From Alphaproteobacteria bacterium (lineage in GTDB: Bacteria; Pseudomonadota; Alphaproteobacteria; ATCC43930; CGMCC-115725), in assembly GCA_019238055.1 (NCBI GenBank), contig JAFAOB010000461.1, positions 1 through 35,177 of the forward strand: 35,177 nt of DNA, given 5' to 3'. Below the pieces are notes generated by a model that made no database searches, was not told the DNA's origin, and saw nothing but the letters and a program-made list of their open reading frames with translations. Positions within the stretch are counted from its first letter, which is position 1; each line of letters begins with the position of its first letter. This document shows positions 2,091 to 28,806 of the stretch, one piece after another. Made by a program: the position numbers and the translations under genes.

Positions 2091-2416
2091 CGTGCAGATT
2101 GGCCCGACCGTGCCCGCGCTCCGGCTGCAACCGCACGGCAGATCCGGTATCTGGCGAACATCTTTTGTCCGGGTTTAACCGCCTGCTCTGGAGGGGGCGA
2201 TTTACCCTTGTCCAAGAGGCTGGATAGGGCGATCCTGCTTCCATGAGGTTCCGAAATCCGGGGGATGTCGGTTCAAAGCGCTTCCATATATGGGGCCTTC
2301 CGCACAAGCGTCAGCGCGGGCGATATGGCATGAGGCACTCGTGTGGTTTTTTCGGGTTGCACCTCTTTCCCTGATCCCAGGGTCGCGGTTCAACCATCTT
2401 TACGACGGAGGCACCA
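2091..2416. other. Intergenic stretch without a recognisable gene
   Basis: Lies between the livF remnant and the amidohydrolase gene. Short open frames exist on the minus strand, but none has a plausible ribosome-binding site or recognisable protein pattern. It must hold the promoter for the rightward gene at 2417, but no convincing -35/-10 pair stands out. Confidence 0.5.
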
Positions 2417-4441
2417 ATGGCAGATTACGACATTATCATTCAAGGCGGCACGATCGTTGATGGAACACGCACGCCCCGTTATGTGAGCGATATTGCGATC
2501 AAGGATGGCAAAATCGCCCAGATCGGCGGTTTAAAAGGAAAGACCGCCGACCGTATTCTGGATGCTGCGGGTCGCATTGTGGCACCCGGCTTTGTCGATC
2601 TGCACACGCATTATGACGCGCAGATCTTCTGGGATCCGTACTGCACGCTCTCCGGGTGGCACGGGGTGACCTCAGTGGCCCTGGGTAATTGCGGGTTCGG
2701 GTTCGCCCCGTCGCGAGTTGAAGATCGCGATCGGGCGATGCTCGGCATGACCCGCAACGAGGCGATCCCCTATGAGGCCATGAAAGCCGGCATGCCGTGG
2801 AATTGGCTGACGTTCCCCGATTTCATCGAGGCTCTGACCCGGACGCCCAAGGGCGTCAATTGCCTGACCTACGTACCTCTGACCCCGCTCTATGCGTGGG
2901 TGATGGGCTGGGAGGAAGCCAAGAAGCGGCGGCCGACCGAGGCGGAACTCCAGGAAATGTGCCGGTTGATCAACGAGGCAATGGATGCCGGGGCGTGCGG
3001 CTGGTCAGCCCAGGTTTTGGGCCCGAAATCCATCCAACGGGATTATGACGGGACCCCGATGGTCACCGATCTGCTCTCGGAACATGAAATCCTGACCTTC
3101 GCCAAGGTATTGGCCGACCGCGACGAAGGCTTCATTGAGCTGGCATATCAGGAGACCGGTGAAGAAGGACGTCCGCTGGCAGAAGAAACCAAGCGGTTCT
3201 TCGAGAAAATCGCCGCAGTGGCGAAACGGCCAATCCTGTACCAAGCCGTCGTGCCGAATGCGGTGCACCCCGAAATGCATCGCGAGCGGATTCGCTGGTT
3301 GGAAAGTTGTGCGGAGCGGGGGCTGCGGGTCTACGGCCAGGGTGTCACCCGGCGCGGCGGGTTTGAGATGACCTTTGTCGACTGGAACCTGTTCGATGAC
3401 ACCGAGGCTTGGCGGGACGTGACGTTGGGGACGAAGAACGAACGCAAGGCCAAGATGCAAGACCCGGAGATGCGTCACCGCCTCAAAGAGGAATGGGACG
3501 CTGGGATCCGGCCAACCACCGTGGTCGCGCGTTCGGTTGGCAGTCTGATCGTGCAAAGCCGAAACGTGAAGATCGATATCGGCGCGGAAGCAGACTATCC
3601 GACCCTTCCCGCCCCGGTCGAGATTGCTGGCGCTTCTTATTTCCTGATCAAAACGCGGGACGGCTACAAGCTGTTGTCAAGGGTGTGTCCGCATCAGGGC
3701 GGCACCGTGCAAGACGACGGCGGCACCGTATTCGTCTGTCACAATCATGGCTACCAGTACGACAAGGACGGCGGGAAGTGCCTCACCGCCGGGGGGCTCC
3801 GGATGAAGTCGTATGTGGTGAATGTGAGGGATGGACGCCTGATCGCACTGTTGCCGGACGCGAAAACCGCCAACTCGGTGCGGACCGGGCAAACCGTCCA
3901 GCAGATCGCCGATGCGCAGGGCAAGCACGTTATCGACGCCTTGCTCGACATGGTAGTCGAGGACGACCTGGCCACCGAGTTTTATGCTCCGACGCAGGGG
4001 CGGGATACGGCCCAATTCACCACCGAGGTCGTCGGTTCCAACGTCGTCGTAGCCGGGCTCTCGGATGGCGGGGCCCACGTCAAGTTCCTCACCGCCGGGA
4101 TCTATCCGACGGATCTGTTGACTTGGCTCGTCCGCGACGAGAAGACGGTGAGCTTGGAAGATGCGCATTACAAGTTGAGCTATCTTCCGGCCCATCTCGG
4201 CGGCTTTAAAGACCGTGGCGCGATACGCGAGCAGGCCCCGGCGGATATCGTGGTCTATGACCTCGAAAAGCTGGAAATCTTGCCCTCGGAAGTGGCCGAG
4301 GACCTGCCTGGAGGCGAGTGGCGGCGGATCCAGAAGGCCAGAGGATACAACTGGATTCTGGTCAACGGCGCAATCACCTTTGAAGACGGCGAGCCTACCG
4401 GAACCTTGCCTGGCAAGTTTTTGCGGAATGGTCGAGGCTGA
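2417..4441 (+). CDS. D-aminoacylase-type amidohydrolase with an inserted Rieske [2Fe-2S] domain
   Basis: A 674-residue protein with GGAGG 7 bases before the ATG. Residues 1-380 and 485-674 form a metal-dependent amidohydrolase of the N-acyl-D-amino-acid deacylase type. The N-terminal beta sandwich is followed by DLHTHYDAQ (His63, His65) and then GNCGFGFAP. Cys92 there lies 29 residues after His63, the same spacing as His67 and Cys96 of the Alcaligenes D-aminoacylase. LSDGGAH gives the metal Asp550, and the ending resembles DLPGGEWRRIQKARG...VNG. Between about 395 and 482 lies a Rieske domain with Cys424-Pro-His426 and Cys441-His-Asn-His444, followed by GYQYD and a closing beta strand. Family members without it run about 480-590 residues, so the extra length equals one Rieske domain. 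The frame is unbroken through both junctions. Hydrolase activity is inferred. The role of the cluster is unknown: electron transfer, redox sensing or structure. Confidence 0.88.
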   Translation: MADYDIIIQGGTIVDGTRTPRYVSDIAIKDGKIAQIGGLKGKTADRILDAAGRIVAPGFVDLHTHYDAQIFWDPYCTLSGWHGVTSVALGNCGFGFAPSRVEDRDRAMLGMTRNEAIPYEAMKAGMPWNWLTFPDFIEALTRTPKGVNCLTYVPLTPLYAWVMGWEEAKKRRPTEAELQEMCRLINEAMDAGACGWSAQVLGPKSIQRDYDGTPMVTDLLSEHEILTFAKVLADRDEGFIELAYQETGEEGRPLAEETKRFFEKIAAVAKRPILYQAVVPNAVHPEMHRERIRWLESCAERGLRVYGQGVTRRGGFEMTFVDWNLFDDTEAWRDVTLGTKNERKAKMQDPEMRHRLKEEWDAGIRPTTVVARSVGSLIVQSRNVKIDIGAEADYPTLPAPVEIAGASYFLIKTRDGYKLLSRVCPHQGGTVQDDGGTVFVCHNHGYQYDKDGGKCLTAGGLRMKSYVVNVRDGRLIALLPDAKTANSVRTGQTVQQIADAQGKHVIDALLDMVVEDDLATEFYAPTQGRDTAQFTTEVVGSNVVVAGLSDGGAHVKFLTAGIYPTDLLTWLVRDEKTVSLEDAHYKLSYLPAHLGGFKDRGAIREQAPADIVVYDLEKLEILPSEVAEDLPGGEWRRIQKARGYNWILVNGAITFEDGEPTGTLPGKFLRNGRG

Positions 4442-6814: not shown

Positions 6815-7759
6815 ATGCGCTACGGCTTTTATCTCCCGACCCGCGGCCCGGCCGCTACGCGCGACGGCATTCTCGCCCTGGCGCGCGAAGGCGAGCGGCT
6901 AGGCTTGCACTCGGCGATGATCGCGGACCATATTGTCTTCCCGGTCGAGAGTCAGTCCGCGTACCCATACACGGTGGATGGCAAGCACCCGGGCGTGGGC
7001 GATGCGCTAGAGACGTTCTCGATCCTCGGGGTAGTTGCCGGTGCAACGGAGCGGCTGCGGCTCGTCACCTCCGTGCTGGTATTGCCCTATCGCAATCCGG
7101 TGCTGACCGCGAAGATGGTGGCCTCACTGGATGTCTTGTCCGGCGGACGGCTCACATTAGGCGTCGGCGCCGGCTGGCTGAAGGAAGAATTCGAAGCGCT
7201 GAACAGTCCCGCCTTCAATATGCGCGGCGCGGTGACCGATGAATGGATCACGATCTTCAACCAACTCTGGTCCCAGTCGCCCGCCAGCTTCAATGGCCGC
7301 TTCTATCGATACGCTGATATCCGGTGCGAACCCTTGCCCTTGCAGAAGCCGCACCCGCCAATCTGGATTGGCGGGCATTCCCATGCCGCGCTGCGACGCA
7401 CGGCCCGGTATGGCGATGGCTGGCACCCTGTCGGCGCTGTCGCCGCCTCGCCGTTGCCGCCGCAGGAGATGCGCGTGCATCTGGAGACACTGAAGCAGCT
7501 GACCGAGGCCGAGGGGCGCGATTTCTCGGCGCTGACGATCTCCTACAAGGCGCCGCTCTACGACGCCGACCTTCCACTGCCCGACGGGTCCCGCCGGCCC
7601 TTCTCTGGCGAGCCGGAAGACATCGCCGGAGACATTCAAAATTTCACGGCGATCGGCGTGCACGAGCTGATCTTCGACTTCCGTGGCCAGTCCATTGCAG
7701 AGAGCATCGAGCGCCTGCAATGGTTCGCCACTGACGTGATCCCGCTGGTTGACGGCTAA
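6815..7759 (+). CDS. LLM-class (luciferase-like) F420/flavin-dependent oxidoreductase
   Basis: A 314-residue TIM-barrel protein. It begins MRYGFYLPTRGP and contains IADHIVFP, the central TSVLVLPYRNPVLTAKMVAS segment, GGRLTLGVGAGW and PPIWIGGHS, all hallmarks of the bacterial luciferase-like monooxygenase superfamily in the F420-dependent subgroup. Such enzymes use reduced F420 or FMNH2 to reduce or oxygenate organic substrates. An AAGGGA precedes the ATG by about 9 bases. It stands alone between the TPR pseudogene and a convergent PEBP-like gene. No F420-biosynthesis gene is in the window, so the cofactor is not settled and the substrate is unknown. Confidence 0.88.
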   Translation: MRYGFYLPTRGPAATRDGILALAREGERLGLHSAMIADHIVFPVESQSAYPYTVDGKHPGVGDALETFSILGVVAGATERLRLVTSVLVLPYRNPVLTAKMVASLDVLSGGRLTLGVGAGWLKEEFEALNSPAFNMRGAVTDEWITIFNQLWSQSPASFNGRFYRYADIRCEPLPLQKPHPPIWIGGHSHAALRRTARYGDGWHPVGAVAASPLPPQEMRVHLETLKQLTEAEGRDFSALTISYKAPLYDADLPLPDGSRRPFSGEPEDIAGDIQNFTAIGVHELIFDFRGQSIAESIERLQWFATDVIPLVDG

Positions 7760-8608: not shown

Positions 8609-9739
8609 TCAATTCTCGGGCGACGTAAAAACCGCGCAGGGGGATGCGATGCCGCGGAGTGCATGCGTGCCGAGCGCGATCAGCGGCGCATCGGTCTCAG
8701 CGGCAAACGCGCCTGATATGAGCACCGCCTTCCCGAGCGGCCGGCATAGCCCTGACAACCGGCTTACCAGATTGACGGCGCGGCCGATCGCCGTGAAATC
8801 CAGGCGATCGGCGGCGCCGATATTGCCCCACAGCATCTCGCCGAGATGCAGGGCGGCGCCGAAGGGCAGAGGCGGCAGCCCTTGCCGGCGTCGCTCCTTG
8901 TCGAGATGCGCCATCCCGGCCCGGGCGGCGGACACCGCGCGGAGGGCAGCACCACAGGCGTCGCGCGGCGGCCCTCCGGTGACCGGAAAGATCGCCAATA
9001 AGCCGTCGCCGATGAATTTCAGCACCTCGCCGCCGAAGGCGTGAACCGCGCCGGCGATGCGATCGAACCACGCGTTGAGAGCTGAGATGACCGCGGTGGG
9101 AGGATTGCTTTCGGATAGCGCCGTGAAGCCGCGCAGATCGGCATAGAGCAGCGCTGCCTGGATGGTCTCGCCGATATCGCGCCGCAAAGGAGCCGCCAGC
9201 ACCCGTACCGCGCTGCGCCGGCCGAGATAGGCTTCCAGCGTCGCCGTCAATGTCGCGCGCGCGGCGAGGACGGCAAGAGGCGCGGCTGCGAAGCGCGCAG
9301 CCTGACGCAGTTGATTGGTCTCATCAAGCGTGAACGGACGCGGCCCGATCCAGCCGAGCGAAGGCCCATCTCGCCTTGCCCCTATCACGTCCTCATGCAC
9401 GACGCCCGCCCCGATTCCGGCGAGCCAGCGCCGGCCGGCATCGTTGGGCGGACTTGCTTCCAGCGCTGCCGCGGGTCCACCTGGGGCGAACCCTACAGCC
9501 TCAATGACCTCTCCGCTCTCGGTGAGCCACAGCCAGGTGCGTCTGGCAATGAGCGGGTGCGGGACTTCGAGCGTCAGCGCGCCGCCCGCGAGCGGCAGGC
9601 CATCCTCGACCAGACGCGCACCGAATTCTGCCAGCAGCCGGTCGGCGCCCGCGCTCTCGGCCGCCGCATCGACGAGCCAGGCAAGGGTCGAAGAGAGACG
9701 CATGACGCGAACATGGGGTTGACATACCATCCTTGTCAC
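8609..9739 (-). CDS. Class III adenylate/guanylate cyclase with an N-terminal uncharacterised region
   Basis: About 376 residues. The C-terminal cyclase homology domain (about 195-345) has the metal-binding Asp201 in LYADLRGFT and Asp245 in KFIGDGLLAIFP. The base-selecting segment is LDFTAIG (Asp314), and the transition-state pair is Asn323/Arg327 in GRAVNLVSRL. All catalytic positions are therefore present, and the protein should make cAMP or cGMP from ATP or GTP. Residues 1-180 are a cytosolic sensor-like region I cannot name; no membrane segment is evident. I chose the GTG at 9739 because GGAAGG lies 7 bases before it. ATGs at 9730 and 9703 are alternatives, and the frame is open up to 10042. 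A LexA-type box lies upstream at 9917-9931. Confidence 0.88.
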   Translation of the reverse strand: MTRMVCQPHVRVMRLSSTLAWLVDAAAESAGADRLLAEFGARLVEDGLPLAGGALTLEVPHPLIARRTWLWLTESGEVIEAVGFAPGGPAAALEASPPNDAGRRWLAGIGAGVVHEDVIGARRDGPSLGWIGPRPFTLDETNQLRQAARFAAAPLAVLAARATLTATLEAYLGRRSAVRVLAAPLRRDIGETIQAALLYADLRGFTALSESNPPTAVISALNAWFDRIAGAVHAFGGEVLKFIGDGLLAIFPVTGGPPRDACGAALRAVSAARAGMAHLDKERRRQGLPPLPFGAALHLGEMLWGNIGAADRLDFTAIGRAVNLVSRLSGLCRPLGKAVLISGAFAAETDAPLIALGTHALRGIASPCAVFTSPEN

Positions 9740-10044
9740 GAGCCTACCTTCCGGCGCAAAAAGCGCCGACGGGTTATCGTTATCCCCGCAAAAAAGCGAG
9801 GGTCCAGGGGCAATCATCGTGGCCCGCCGCCCTGGGTTTCCGCTTTCGTGGGAAAGGCTTCTCCCTCTGTGTCGGGTGACGCAATTCGTGGTGGCGGAAT
9901 GCGCGAAGTTGGTATAGAACAAATAGCGAACCCAGGTTGCTCCAGAGGCCGCTCGCGGGAATAACGGTAACATGTTGGATATTTTGCCCGGAAAGGAGCC
10001 GGCTTCAGCGCCGGCCATCCGCGCAACTCGACAATGAGGCATCG
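9740..10044. other. Divergent intergenic region between the cyclase and SRPBCC genes
   Basis: Contains no convincing gene. The cyclase frame stays open through it, but that stretch has no good start. It holds a CGGCGC-AAAAA-GCGCCG hairpin at 9752-9768 and the LexA-like direct repeat at 9917-9931. Both flanking genes must be transcribed from here. Confidence 0.5.
9917..9931 (-). promoter_or_regulatory. Candidate alphaproteobacterial LexA (SOS) box
   Basis: The minus strand reads GTTCGCTATTTGTTC, a perfect GTTC-N7-GTTC direct repeat, the LexA operator form known in alphaproteobacteria. It is followed by TATACC, a possible -10. It lies about 180 bases upstream of the cyclase start. About one such 8-base match is expected by chance in 35 kb, so this is a candidate only. 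Confidence 0.35.
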
Positions 10045-27354: not shown

Positions 27355-27552
27355 TAACTTTCTCCACCGTGATTGATAGGTCATCGTTGGTGGAAACATT
27401 GCGGCTGCATAAATGGTTCGGTTTCCCGAGGCACCCGCATGACAGGCGATGCTGGCAAAGACGCGCGAAGGTCGCATATAGTTGCACTGTTCGATCCTTA
27501 TTACTAGGTTTTCTACTCTCGGCGGTTGCCGACAAACAAGATAGAACACGAC

Positions 27553-28806
27553 ATGGAGCACGCGATCCCGCGCCACATACGATTGACGTCGCACCCCGGG
27601 AGCGCCGGTCAAACCGCGATGGCGTTGTGCTGGGGTGCGGCCGACCCTGCTCGCCGCGGACCGGTTGTGGCGAGCCCAGCAGAGCCGAGTCGACGCAACG
27701 CGATCGGCTCCTATTCGGGCGCTTATGGGCTTTATCGCGCGCTCGCCATCGCGACTAAGGCGCTCGCGCGTGACCACCGCCCGGATTTGACCGACACGGC
27801 ACCGGTGGCGTTGATCGCACCCAACCCGCAATGGGGCGATCCGACAAAAATCGTCTCGCTCGATCCGTGGGGCCATCTGGTGGGCGAGGTGTTTGCCGAG
27901 ACGATCGCGGCCGGCATCGATGTTCGCCCGACAATCGCGGTCACCACAGCGCACATAGCGATGCCCGAGATCCGCGAGCGGATCGGTGAAGGGGATTTGA
28001 TCCCCGATGGAAGGGTCCTGCTCGACAATGGCGAAATCCGTGTGACCAAGGCGGCGATCGATCCGGTCTGGTATCTGCCCGGGCTCGCCACGCGGTTTGG
28101 CGTCCGCGAGAGCGAGCTGCGCCGTTGCCTGTTCGAGGAAACCGGCGGGATGTTTCCCGAGCTGGTGACGCGGCCGGATCTCGAAGTGCTGTTGCCGCCG
28201 ATCGGGGGAGCCACGGTCTATCTGTTCGGCGAGGTCGATCGGATCGCGGTAGCGGGCACCGTAATTGCTTGCCGCGTCCATGACGAATGCAACGGGTCGG
28301 ATGTATTCGGCTCGGACATTTGCACCTGCCGGCCTTACTTGGTGCACGGCATCGAGGTGTGTGTCGCGACTGCGCAACAAGGCGGAGTCGGGATCATCGT
28401 CTACAATCGGAAAGAGGGTCGTGCGCTCGGCGAGGTTACCAAATTCCTGGTCTACAACGCCCGCAAGCGTCAGGTGGGCGGCGACCGCGCCGACACTTAT
28501 TTCCGCCGCACCGAATGCGTCGCCGGCGTACAGGATTTGCGTTTTCAGGAATTGATGCCGGACGTTCTGCATTGGCTCGGCGTGCGGCGCATCGATCGCT
28601 GGGTATCGATGTCGAACATCAAGCGCTCGGCACTCGAGGCGCAAGGAATCGAAATCGTAGAGCAGATGGCGATCCCGGAACGGCTGGTGCCGCTCGACGC
28701 ATCCGTCGAAATCGAGGCCAAAAAGGCGGCGGGCTATTTCAATCCTTCGGGCGCGGCTGACATGACCCAATTGCACAACGTCAAGGGCCGTGCCCTCGGC
28801 AAGTGA
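27553..28806 (+). CDS. URC1-type GTP cyclohydrolase II-like protein (uracil catabolism)
   Basis: A 417-residue protein. The C-terminal half has the RibA-type zinc site Cys246-x10-Cys257-x-Cys259 (HDECNGSDVFGSDICTC), with the same spacing as Cys54/65/67 of E. coli RibA, and the KEGRALGEVTKFLVYN segment in place of RibA's REGRGIGL. The N-terminal 220 residues are an extension not present in riboflavin-type RibA. Together with the two genes that follow, this matches URC1 of the uracil-catabolic (URC) route, where a uracil-derived nucleotide ring is opened instead of GTP. The ATG at 27553 lacks a good ribosome site; a TTG at 27526 is an alternative. Its end overlaps URC4 by 17 bases. Confidence 0.88.
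   Translation: MEHAIPRHIRLTSHPGSAGQTAMALCWGAADPARRGPVVASPAEPSRRNAIGSYSGAYGLYRALAIATKALARDHRPDLTDTAPVALIAPNPQWGDPTKIVSLDPWGHLVGEVFAETIAAGIDVRPTIAVTTAHIAMPEIRERIGEGDLIPDGRVLLDNGEIRVTKAAIDPVWYLPGLATRFGVRESELRRCLFEETGGMFPELVTRPDLEVLLPPIGGATVYLFGEVDRIAVAGTVIACRVHDECNGSDVFGSDICTCRPYLVHGIEVCVATAQQGGVGIIVYNRKEGRALGEVTKFLVYNARKRQVGGDRADTYFRRTECVAGVQDLRFQELMPDVLHWLGVRRIDRWVSMSNIKRSALEAQGIEIVEQMAIPERLVPLDASVEIEAKKAAGYFNPSGAADMTQLHNVKGRALGK

Follow-up and report, generated by a model that had tools for sequence, protein, structure and literature searches.

A Rieske domain inserted into a D-aminoacylase-fold amidohydrolase of an alphaproteobacterium and marine Chloroflexota: a candidate one-chain redox enzyme

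Introduction

In the literature covered, the known electron-fed amidohydrolase oxygenases (AROs; AibH2, SfbO and PtmU3) represent a young field that is limited to the family PF04909. AibH1H2 is an oxygenase of the amidohydrolase superfamily working with the Rieske ferredoxin AibG and the reductase AibF, and its AibH2-type dinuclear site is built from six ligands, namely Asp25, His27, His211, Glu265, Asp337 and His340 (PMC7782822). The cofactor is Mn/Fe, and AibH2-like proteins show 90% co-occurrence with a gene for a small Rieske ferredoxin (PMC10401708). Moreover, a search of small-Rieske neighbourhoods uncovered further PF04909 oxygenases, e.g. SfbO (PMC10811679). With these systems known, a Rieske protein paired with an amidohydrolase is not without precedent, albeit from a different family and on separate chains.

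A Rieske domain and a catalytic metal on one chain are found in Rieske non-heme iron oxygenases such as carbazole and naphthalene dioxygenase. Rieske oxygenases use a two-His-one-carboxylate ligand set. In the open-access literature searched we found no description of a Rieske domain within an amidohydrolase, nothing joining Rieske proteins with D-aminoacylase or N-acyl-D-amino-acid deacylase, and nothing on SAR202 bacteria with both a Rieske protein and an amidohydrolase. Here we analyse such an arrangement in a stretch of 35,177 nt (contig JAFAOB010000461.1, in the following "the window") from an alphaproteobacterial MAG.

Results

One intact gene carries an inserted Rieske domain

The ORF at 2417-4441 (+) is translated into 674 aa with no interruption. 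Its features are summarized in Table 1. The initial annotation, made from the window alone, had described an unbroken frame of 674 codons with HxH at 63/65, Cys92, Cys424-x-His426, Cys441-x2-His444 and Asp550 in SDGGAH; the frame is indeed open over its full length and all of these residues are found where they had been placed. In Pfam the protein matches Amidohydro_3 (PF07969) with 2e-19, above the gathering cut-off, and also PF01979. Residues 397-457 match the Rieske family PF00355 with 30.9 bits versus a curated cut-off of 20.3.

Insert-free relatives align on both flanks of this region and are ~100 residues shorter in between, locating the insert between the ER..KM.DP helix and the TGQTVQQIADAQGKH helix. 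A position just before the latter had been proposed beforehand and holds for the homologues, too. The core of the insert amounts to nearly one entire small Rieske protein, and the CxH and CxxH ligands are intact in 13 out of 13 aligned fused sequences.

Table 1. Features of the fused gene in the window.
Feature	Position	Strand	Basis
Whole gene, 674-aa Rieske-amidohydrolase	2417-4441	+	12 full-length homologues, 78-85% identity
Shine-Dalgarno-like GGAGG, 5 nt ahead of ATG	2407-2411	+	sequence
Amidohydrolase N-part, residues 1-358: small beta domain and first barrel strands	2417-3490	+	Pfam, alignment, fold matches
HxH metal ligands His63, Thr64, His65	2603-2611	+	invariant in 99/99 aligned family members
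Cys92, counterpart of the metal-binding Cys of D-aminoacylase	2690-2692	+	invariant in 99/99
Inserted Rieske [2Fe-2S] domain, core residues ~383-481	3563-3859	+	PF00355 match (2.7e-7); Rieske fold when modelled alone
First Rieske ligand pair, Cys424-Pro-His426	3686-3694	+	13/13 fused proteins
Second Rieske ligand pair, Cys441-x2-His444	3737-3748	+	13/13 fused proteins
Amidohydrolase C-part, residues 490-674	3884-4438	+	Pfam, alignment
Asp550 in SDGGAH, carboxylate metal ligand / base position	4064-4066	+	invariant in 99/99

The predicted full-length model (pLDDT 87) contains the beta-domain and the barrel fold of D-aminoacylase, which is its best structural match (Foldseek 8e-32; against 1m7j VIA Z 43.9, rmsd 3.0, 446 residues aligned). 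The cluster-binding loops of the Rieske part are of low confidence in this model, probably because most alignment rows are gapped at the insert. Hence the insert was folded by itself based on an alignment of 15 sequences. The resulting model (pLDDT 86) is an all-beta structure whose listed PDB matches are all Rieske proteins with Z up to 12.3, comprising Rieske ferredoxins, Rieske oxygenases and cytochrome Rieske subunits as well as small subunits of nitrite reductase and Rieske subunits of arsenite oxidase. Its fold resembles the small Rieske ferredoxins of naphthalene dioxygenase (2qpz) and toluene 4-monooxygenase (1vm9) with Z ~12. In contrast to these, the insert is covalently embedded, and its nearest relatives by sequence are stand-alone proteins of SAR202.

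For the sequence pairs examined, the insert shows a dN much lower than dS, and so does the remainder of the protein (window gene versus its own paralogue, insert only: dN 0.14 and dS 1.1, whereby dS values >1 are rough). The insert is therefore maintained by purifying selection. Pfam match, ligands and modelled fold agree with the earlier claim of a genuine Rieske domain, and the model of the insert contradicts the possibility that the segment cannot form a Rieske fold. From sequence and model, the insert is a true Rieske domain that is predicted to bind a [2Fe-2S] cluster. Taken together, alignments and predicted structures confirm that the ORF is one intact gene for a D-aminoacylase-fold amidohydrolase carrying a Rieske insert.

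The fusion is conserved in marine Chloroflexota

Including the window, the fused architecture was found in 13 sequences, the 12 others being full length and 78-85% identical. A scan of genome contigs, most of the loci compared stemming from MAGs, yielded 11 proteins that match the window protein in length and architecture (78-84% identity), ten in genomes of Chloroflexota (SAR202/Dehalococcoidia) and one in an Acetobacteraceae MAG. A second copy is encoded on another contig of the window's own MAG (L002, G000:C279:1093-3111; 85% identical). Records whose titles call them chromosomes (OY282456, OX638345) contain the same fusion joint. By sequence comparison the fused arrangement is thus conserved in marine Chloroflexota.

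The window derives from a fragmented MAG of 516 contigs, which might speak for an assembly artefact, and a fusion that has decayed and lost its function would be a further explanation. We give both together a negligible probability, since the joint is common to 13 sequences including chromosome-titled records, the ligands are intact and dN/dS of the insert is low. The initial annotation had been wary of an insertion that is lacking in all homologues and created by a chimera; instead, 12 homologues display the same joint. A chimeric assembly is excluded by the identical joint in independent assemblies, OY282456 and OX638345 among them.

No insert was found in 38 other genomes of the family to which the window's genome belongs, and among 393 sampled genomes of the class of G062, G062 is the sole carrier. 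On plasmid records, amidohydrolase relatives stay below 60% identity and small-Rieske matches are weak. In a tree of the amidohydrolase part, which was built quickly with the insert columns left out and has some long branches elsewhere, the two sequences from the window's MAG cluster with the Acetobacteraceae one in a starred group nested within the Chloroflexota sequences. The nesting fits one transfer from SAR202-like bacteria into Proteobacteria.

By its sequence relationships the window contig is native to its genome. The window gene at 27526-28803 has 74-84% identical homologues in genomes of the same genus, which rules out a mis-binned contig, and is ~65% identical to homologues in Reyranella-type alphaproteobacteria. 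A search of the MAG for rpoB as a taxonomic marker gave no match. The segment 27526-30001 encodes a GTP-cyclohydrolase-like protein (PF12471/PF00925) followed by a DUF1688 protein, a pair resembling URC1/URC4 of pyrimidine breakdown. A protein with an adenylate/guanylate cyclase domain at 8609-10042 (-) has no bearing on the fused gene.

The barrel lacks the second-site histidines of D-aminoacylase

The window protein shares fold, HxH, Cys and SDGxxH with D-aminoacylase and N-acyl-D-amino-acid deacylase (1m7j, 3gip, 9g5m). It differs from these by the Rieske insert of ~100 residues and by lacking His at the two positions of the second site. His63, His65, Cys92, Asp550 and His554 do not vary across 99 aligned family members. 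At the positions of H220 and H250, which complete the tight zinc site of D-aminoacylase, by contrast, the family has no His save for 1 out of 99 at the first position; Gln/Glu and Asn or others are found there. In canonical proteins of the D-aminoacylase type, taken from related genomes (L160, L163), the two strands read TTHMRNEG and ISHHK, versus GFIELAYQETG and PILYQAVV, neither with a His, in the window protein. The comparison was done by sequence alignment, and a register uncertainty of one residue leaves the result unchanged. What remains as barrel site of the subfamily are two His, one Cys and one Asp.

In D-aminoacylase the tight zinc site is said to be the catalytic site (1m7j, 1v4y). 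Together with the absence of the second-site His, this renders the deacylase name doubtful for the whole subfamily. The designation "N-acyl-D-amino-acid deacylase-type" of the initial annotation consequently stands for the fold but not for the tight-site His, which are missing in the subfamily.

Membership in the PF04909 oxygenases was considered as well and is ruled out by family and ligand set; Pfam gave no PF04909 match to the window protein at E up to 1.

Residue 628 (window 4298-4300) is His in 49 of the 71 family members without Rieske link and in 0 of 28 Rieske-linked sequences, which have Glu, Thr, Phe or Tyr. This difference spans only three lineages and may be due to chance.

Rieske proteins are linked to the family repeatedly without fusion

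SAR202 genomes with the fused gene also encode stand-alone Rieske proteins that are ~122 aa long and share 45-51% identity with the insert. An insert-free amidohydrolase of the family, ~40% identical to the window protein, is located near 10 out of the 12 closest SAR202 stand-alone Rieske loci and near 0 out of 8 more distant ones, both counts taking in related genomes. The two genes are mostly arranged tail to tail. Six of the ten pair loci are near-copies of a single neighbourhood; L144/L145, L147 and L148 have different neighbours, and the pair has therefore outlived its surroundings. As a side observation, more distant SAR202 stand-alone Rieske genes (L149, L150, L152, L153) lie near genes of one cluster, the tested member of which is an Amidase (PF01425), i.e. 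of another hydrolase family.

In G062, G065 and G070 each high-scoring family member contains a Rieske domain or adjoins a Rieske gene. At three loci of marine Proteobacteria (L075, L076, L078) the family amidohydrolase is directly preceded by a small Rieske gene, in L075 with 106 aa and a gap of ~12 bp, and in Nevskia (L077) such a gene is located directly downstream. In the Boseongicola operon (L076) a flavin monooxygenase-like gene (PF00743; 2152-3759) starts right after the stop of the amidohydrolase. The L078 Rieske gene (2333-2654), on a single-cell contig, is split across two frames, perhaps by a sequencing error, the close copies in L075 and L076 being single-frame. Among the other family members no small Rieske gene was found directly adjacent, and most have none within ~6 kb; the barrel can evidently work without one.

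Fused, SAR202-adjacent and operon-type amidohydrolases form three separate branches with starred support in the amidohydrolase tree. In the Rieske-domain tree the inserts are one group, joined to those SAR202 stand-alone Rieske proteins that adjoin amidohydrolases. The operon-type Rieske proteins are placed far from the inserts and represent a different Rieske lineage. The family has therefore recruited Rieske partners at least two times.

Neighbours of the fused gene

Across the loci compared, no conserved operon was found around the fused gene, and its neighbourhood has neither a conserved reductase gene nor a conserved substrate-pathway gene. Luciferase-like monooxygenases of one sequence cluster are located near the fused gene in 5 out of 12 loci (window 6815-7759, L030, L032, L035 and L087). 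As such genes are abundant in SAR202 anyway, their proximity may have little meaning.

These neighbours bear on an explanation by which the chain would have two functions, a non-redox barrel, e.g. a hydrolase, and a tethered ferredoxin serving a separate oxygenase of the same substrate or pathway. The existence of Rieske-free family members and the wealth of flavin and ring-hydroxylating oxygenases in SAR202 genomes (PMC6946804) are in line with it, as are the luciferase-like genes. An insertion into the middle of a protein is however an odd tether for an independent carrier, no oxygenase is consistently adjacent to the fused gene, and the repeated link involves different Rieske lineages. We thus consider two separate functions rather unlikely.

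Discussion

Judged from sequence and by analogy, the architecture suggests redox catalysis, probably as an oxygenase, instead of simple hydrolysis. As in the AROs, an amidohydrolase-superfamily barrel has a Rieske partner, which is a separate ferredoxin there and is in cis here or adjacent in related branches; the electron-fed metal site of the AROs would have its counterpart in the one proposed below. The systems differ in that the window protein belongs to PF07969 instead of PF04909 and has HxH/Cys/Asp with no His on the fifth strand instead of the DxH six-ligand set.

We lean slightly towards the view that the insert delivers electrons to the barrel metal for use in an oxidation. A reductase encoded at another locus would supply the Rieske cluster, which in turn would pass the electrons on to a metal (probably iron or manganese) bound by His63, His65 and Asp550. 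This metal would then activate O2, and a small organic substrate would be hydroxylated, dealkylated or otherwise oxidised. The protein would represent a one-chain analogue of Rieske oxygenases, called convergent here because the same kind of two-His-one-carboxylate set is found on an unrelated fold. Rieske non-heme iron oxygenases likewise unite a Rieske domain and a site capable of this ligand set on one chain, but their Rieske domain is N-terminal and not a mid-chain insert, and their catalytic part has the Rieske oxygenase fold, whereas that of the window protein is an amidohydrolase barrel.

The same anatomy would also serve an O2-free reaction in which Rieske electrons reduce a substrate at the metal site, and the sequence contains nothing that requires O2. 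Where the reaction of a Rieske-linked amidohydrolase is known, the Rieske protein however serves an oxygenase (PMC7782822, PMC10811679), and we regard a reductive role as quite improbable.

The Rieske domain is located in the insertion ahead of the last barrel strand. In D-aminoacylase (1m7j) the region before this strand reportedly forms an insertion of 63 residues. Given this placement, the predicted Rieske domain could lie near the active site. As the segment may cover the active site, the cluster might alternatively sense redox state or oxygen and thereby act as an on/off gate of a hydrolase. The repeated pairing of the family with small Rieske ferredoxins looks more like electron transfer, and no Rieske protein is known to us for which a sensor role of the hydrolase-gating sort has been proven; sensing therefore appears unlikely to us. 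The initial annotation had offered coupled hydrolysis, redox sensing and gating and had left the AROs out of account; none of the three ideas has direct support, and the comparative evidence is better matched by electrons being delivered to the metal.

Several predictions and comparisons count for the redox reading: the intact Rieske ligands, the selection on the insert, both modelled folds, the metal-ligand pattern, the recurrent link and the precedent of the AROs. Against it count the lack of a conserved reductase or substrate-pathway neighbour of the fused gene, the majority of family members with no small Rieske gene within ~6 kb, the dinuclear site with different ligands in known amidohydrolase oxygenases, the low confidence of the cluster loops in the full-length model, and the orientation of the SAR202 stand-alone pair, which is mostly convergent instead of co-transcribed. 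We propose only tentatively, and with less than even confidence, that the protein represents a new class, namely Rieske oxygenases self-contained in one chain, which arose independently on the barrel of an amidohydrolase and use a metal at His63, His65 and Asp550 with O2.

If true, electron-fed oxygenases would reach into PF07969, a family commonly labelled as amidohydrolases or D-amino-acid deacylases. Its wider subfamily, which has HxH/Cys/Asp and no second-site His, would then include redox enzymes mis-named deacylases. A one-chain system with electron donor and catalytic site already joined would moreover be convenient for structure and kinetics. The finding would bear on the attack of resistant organic matter by SAR202 bacteria, which are abundant in the ocean.
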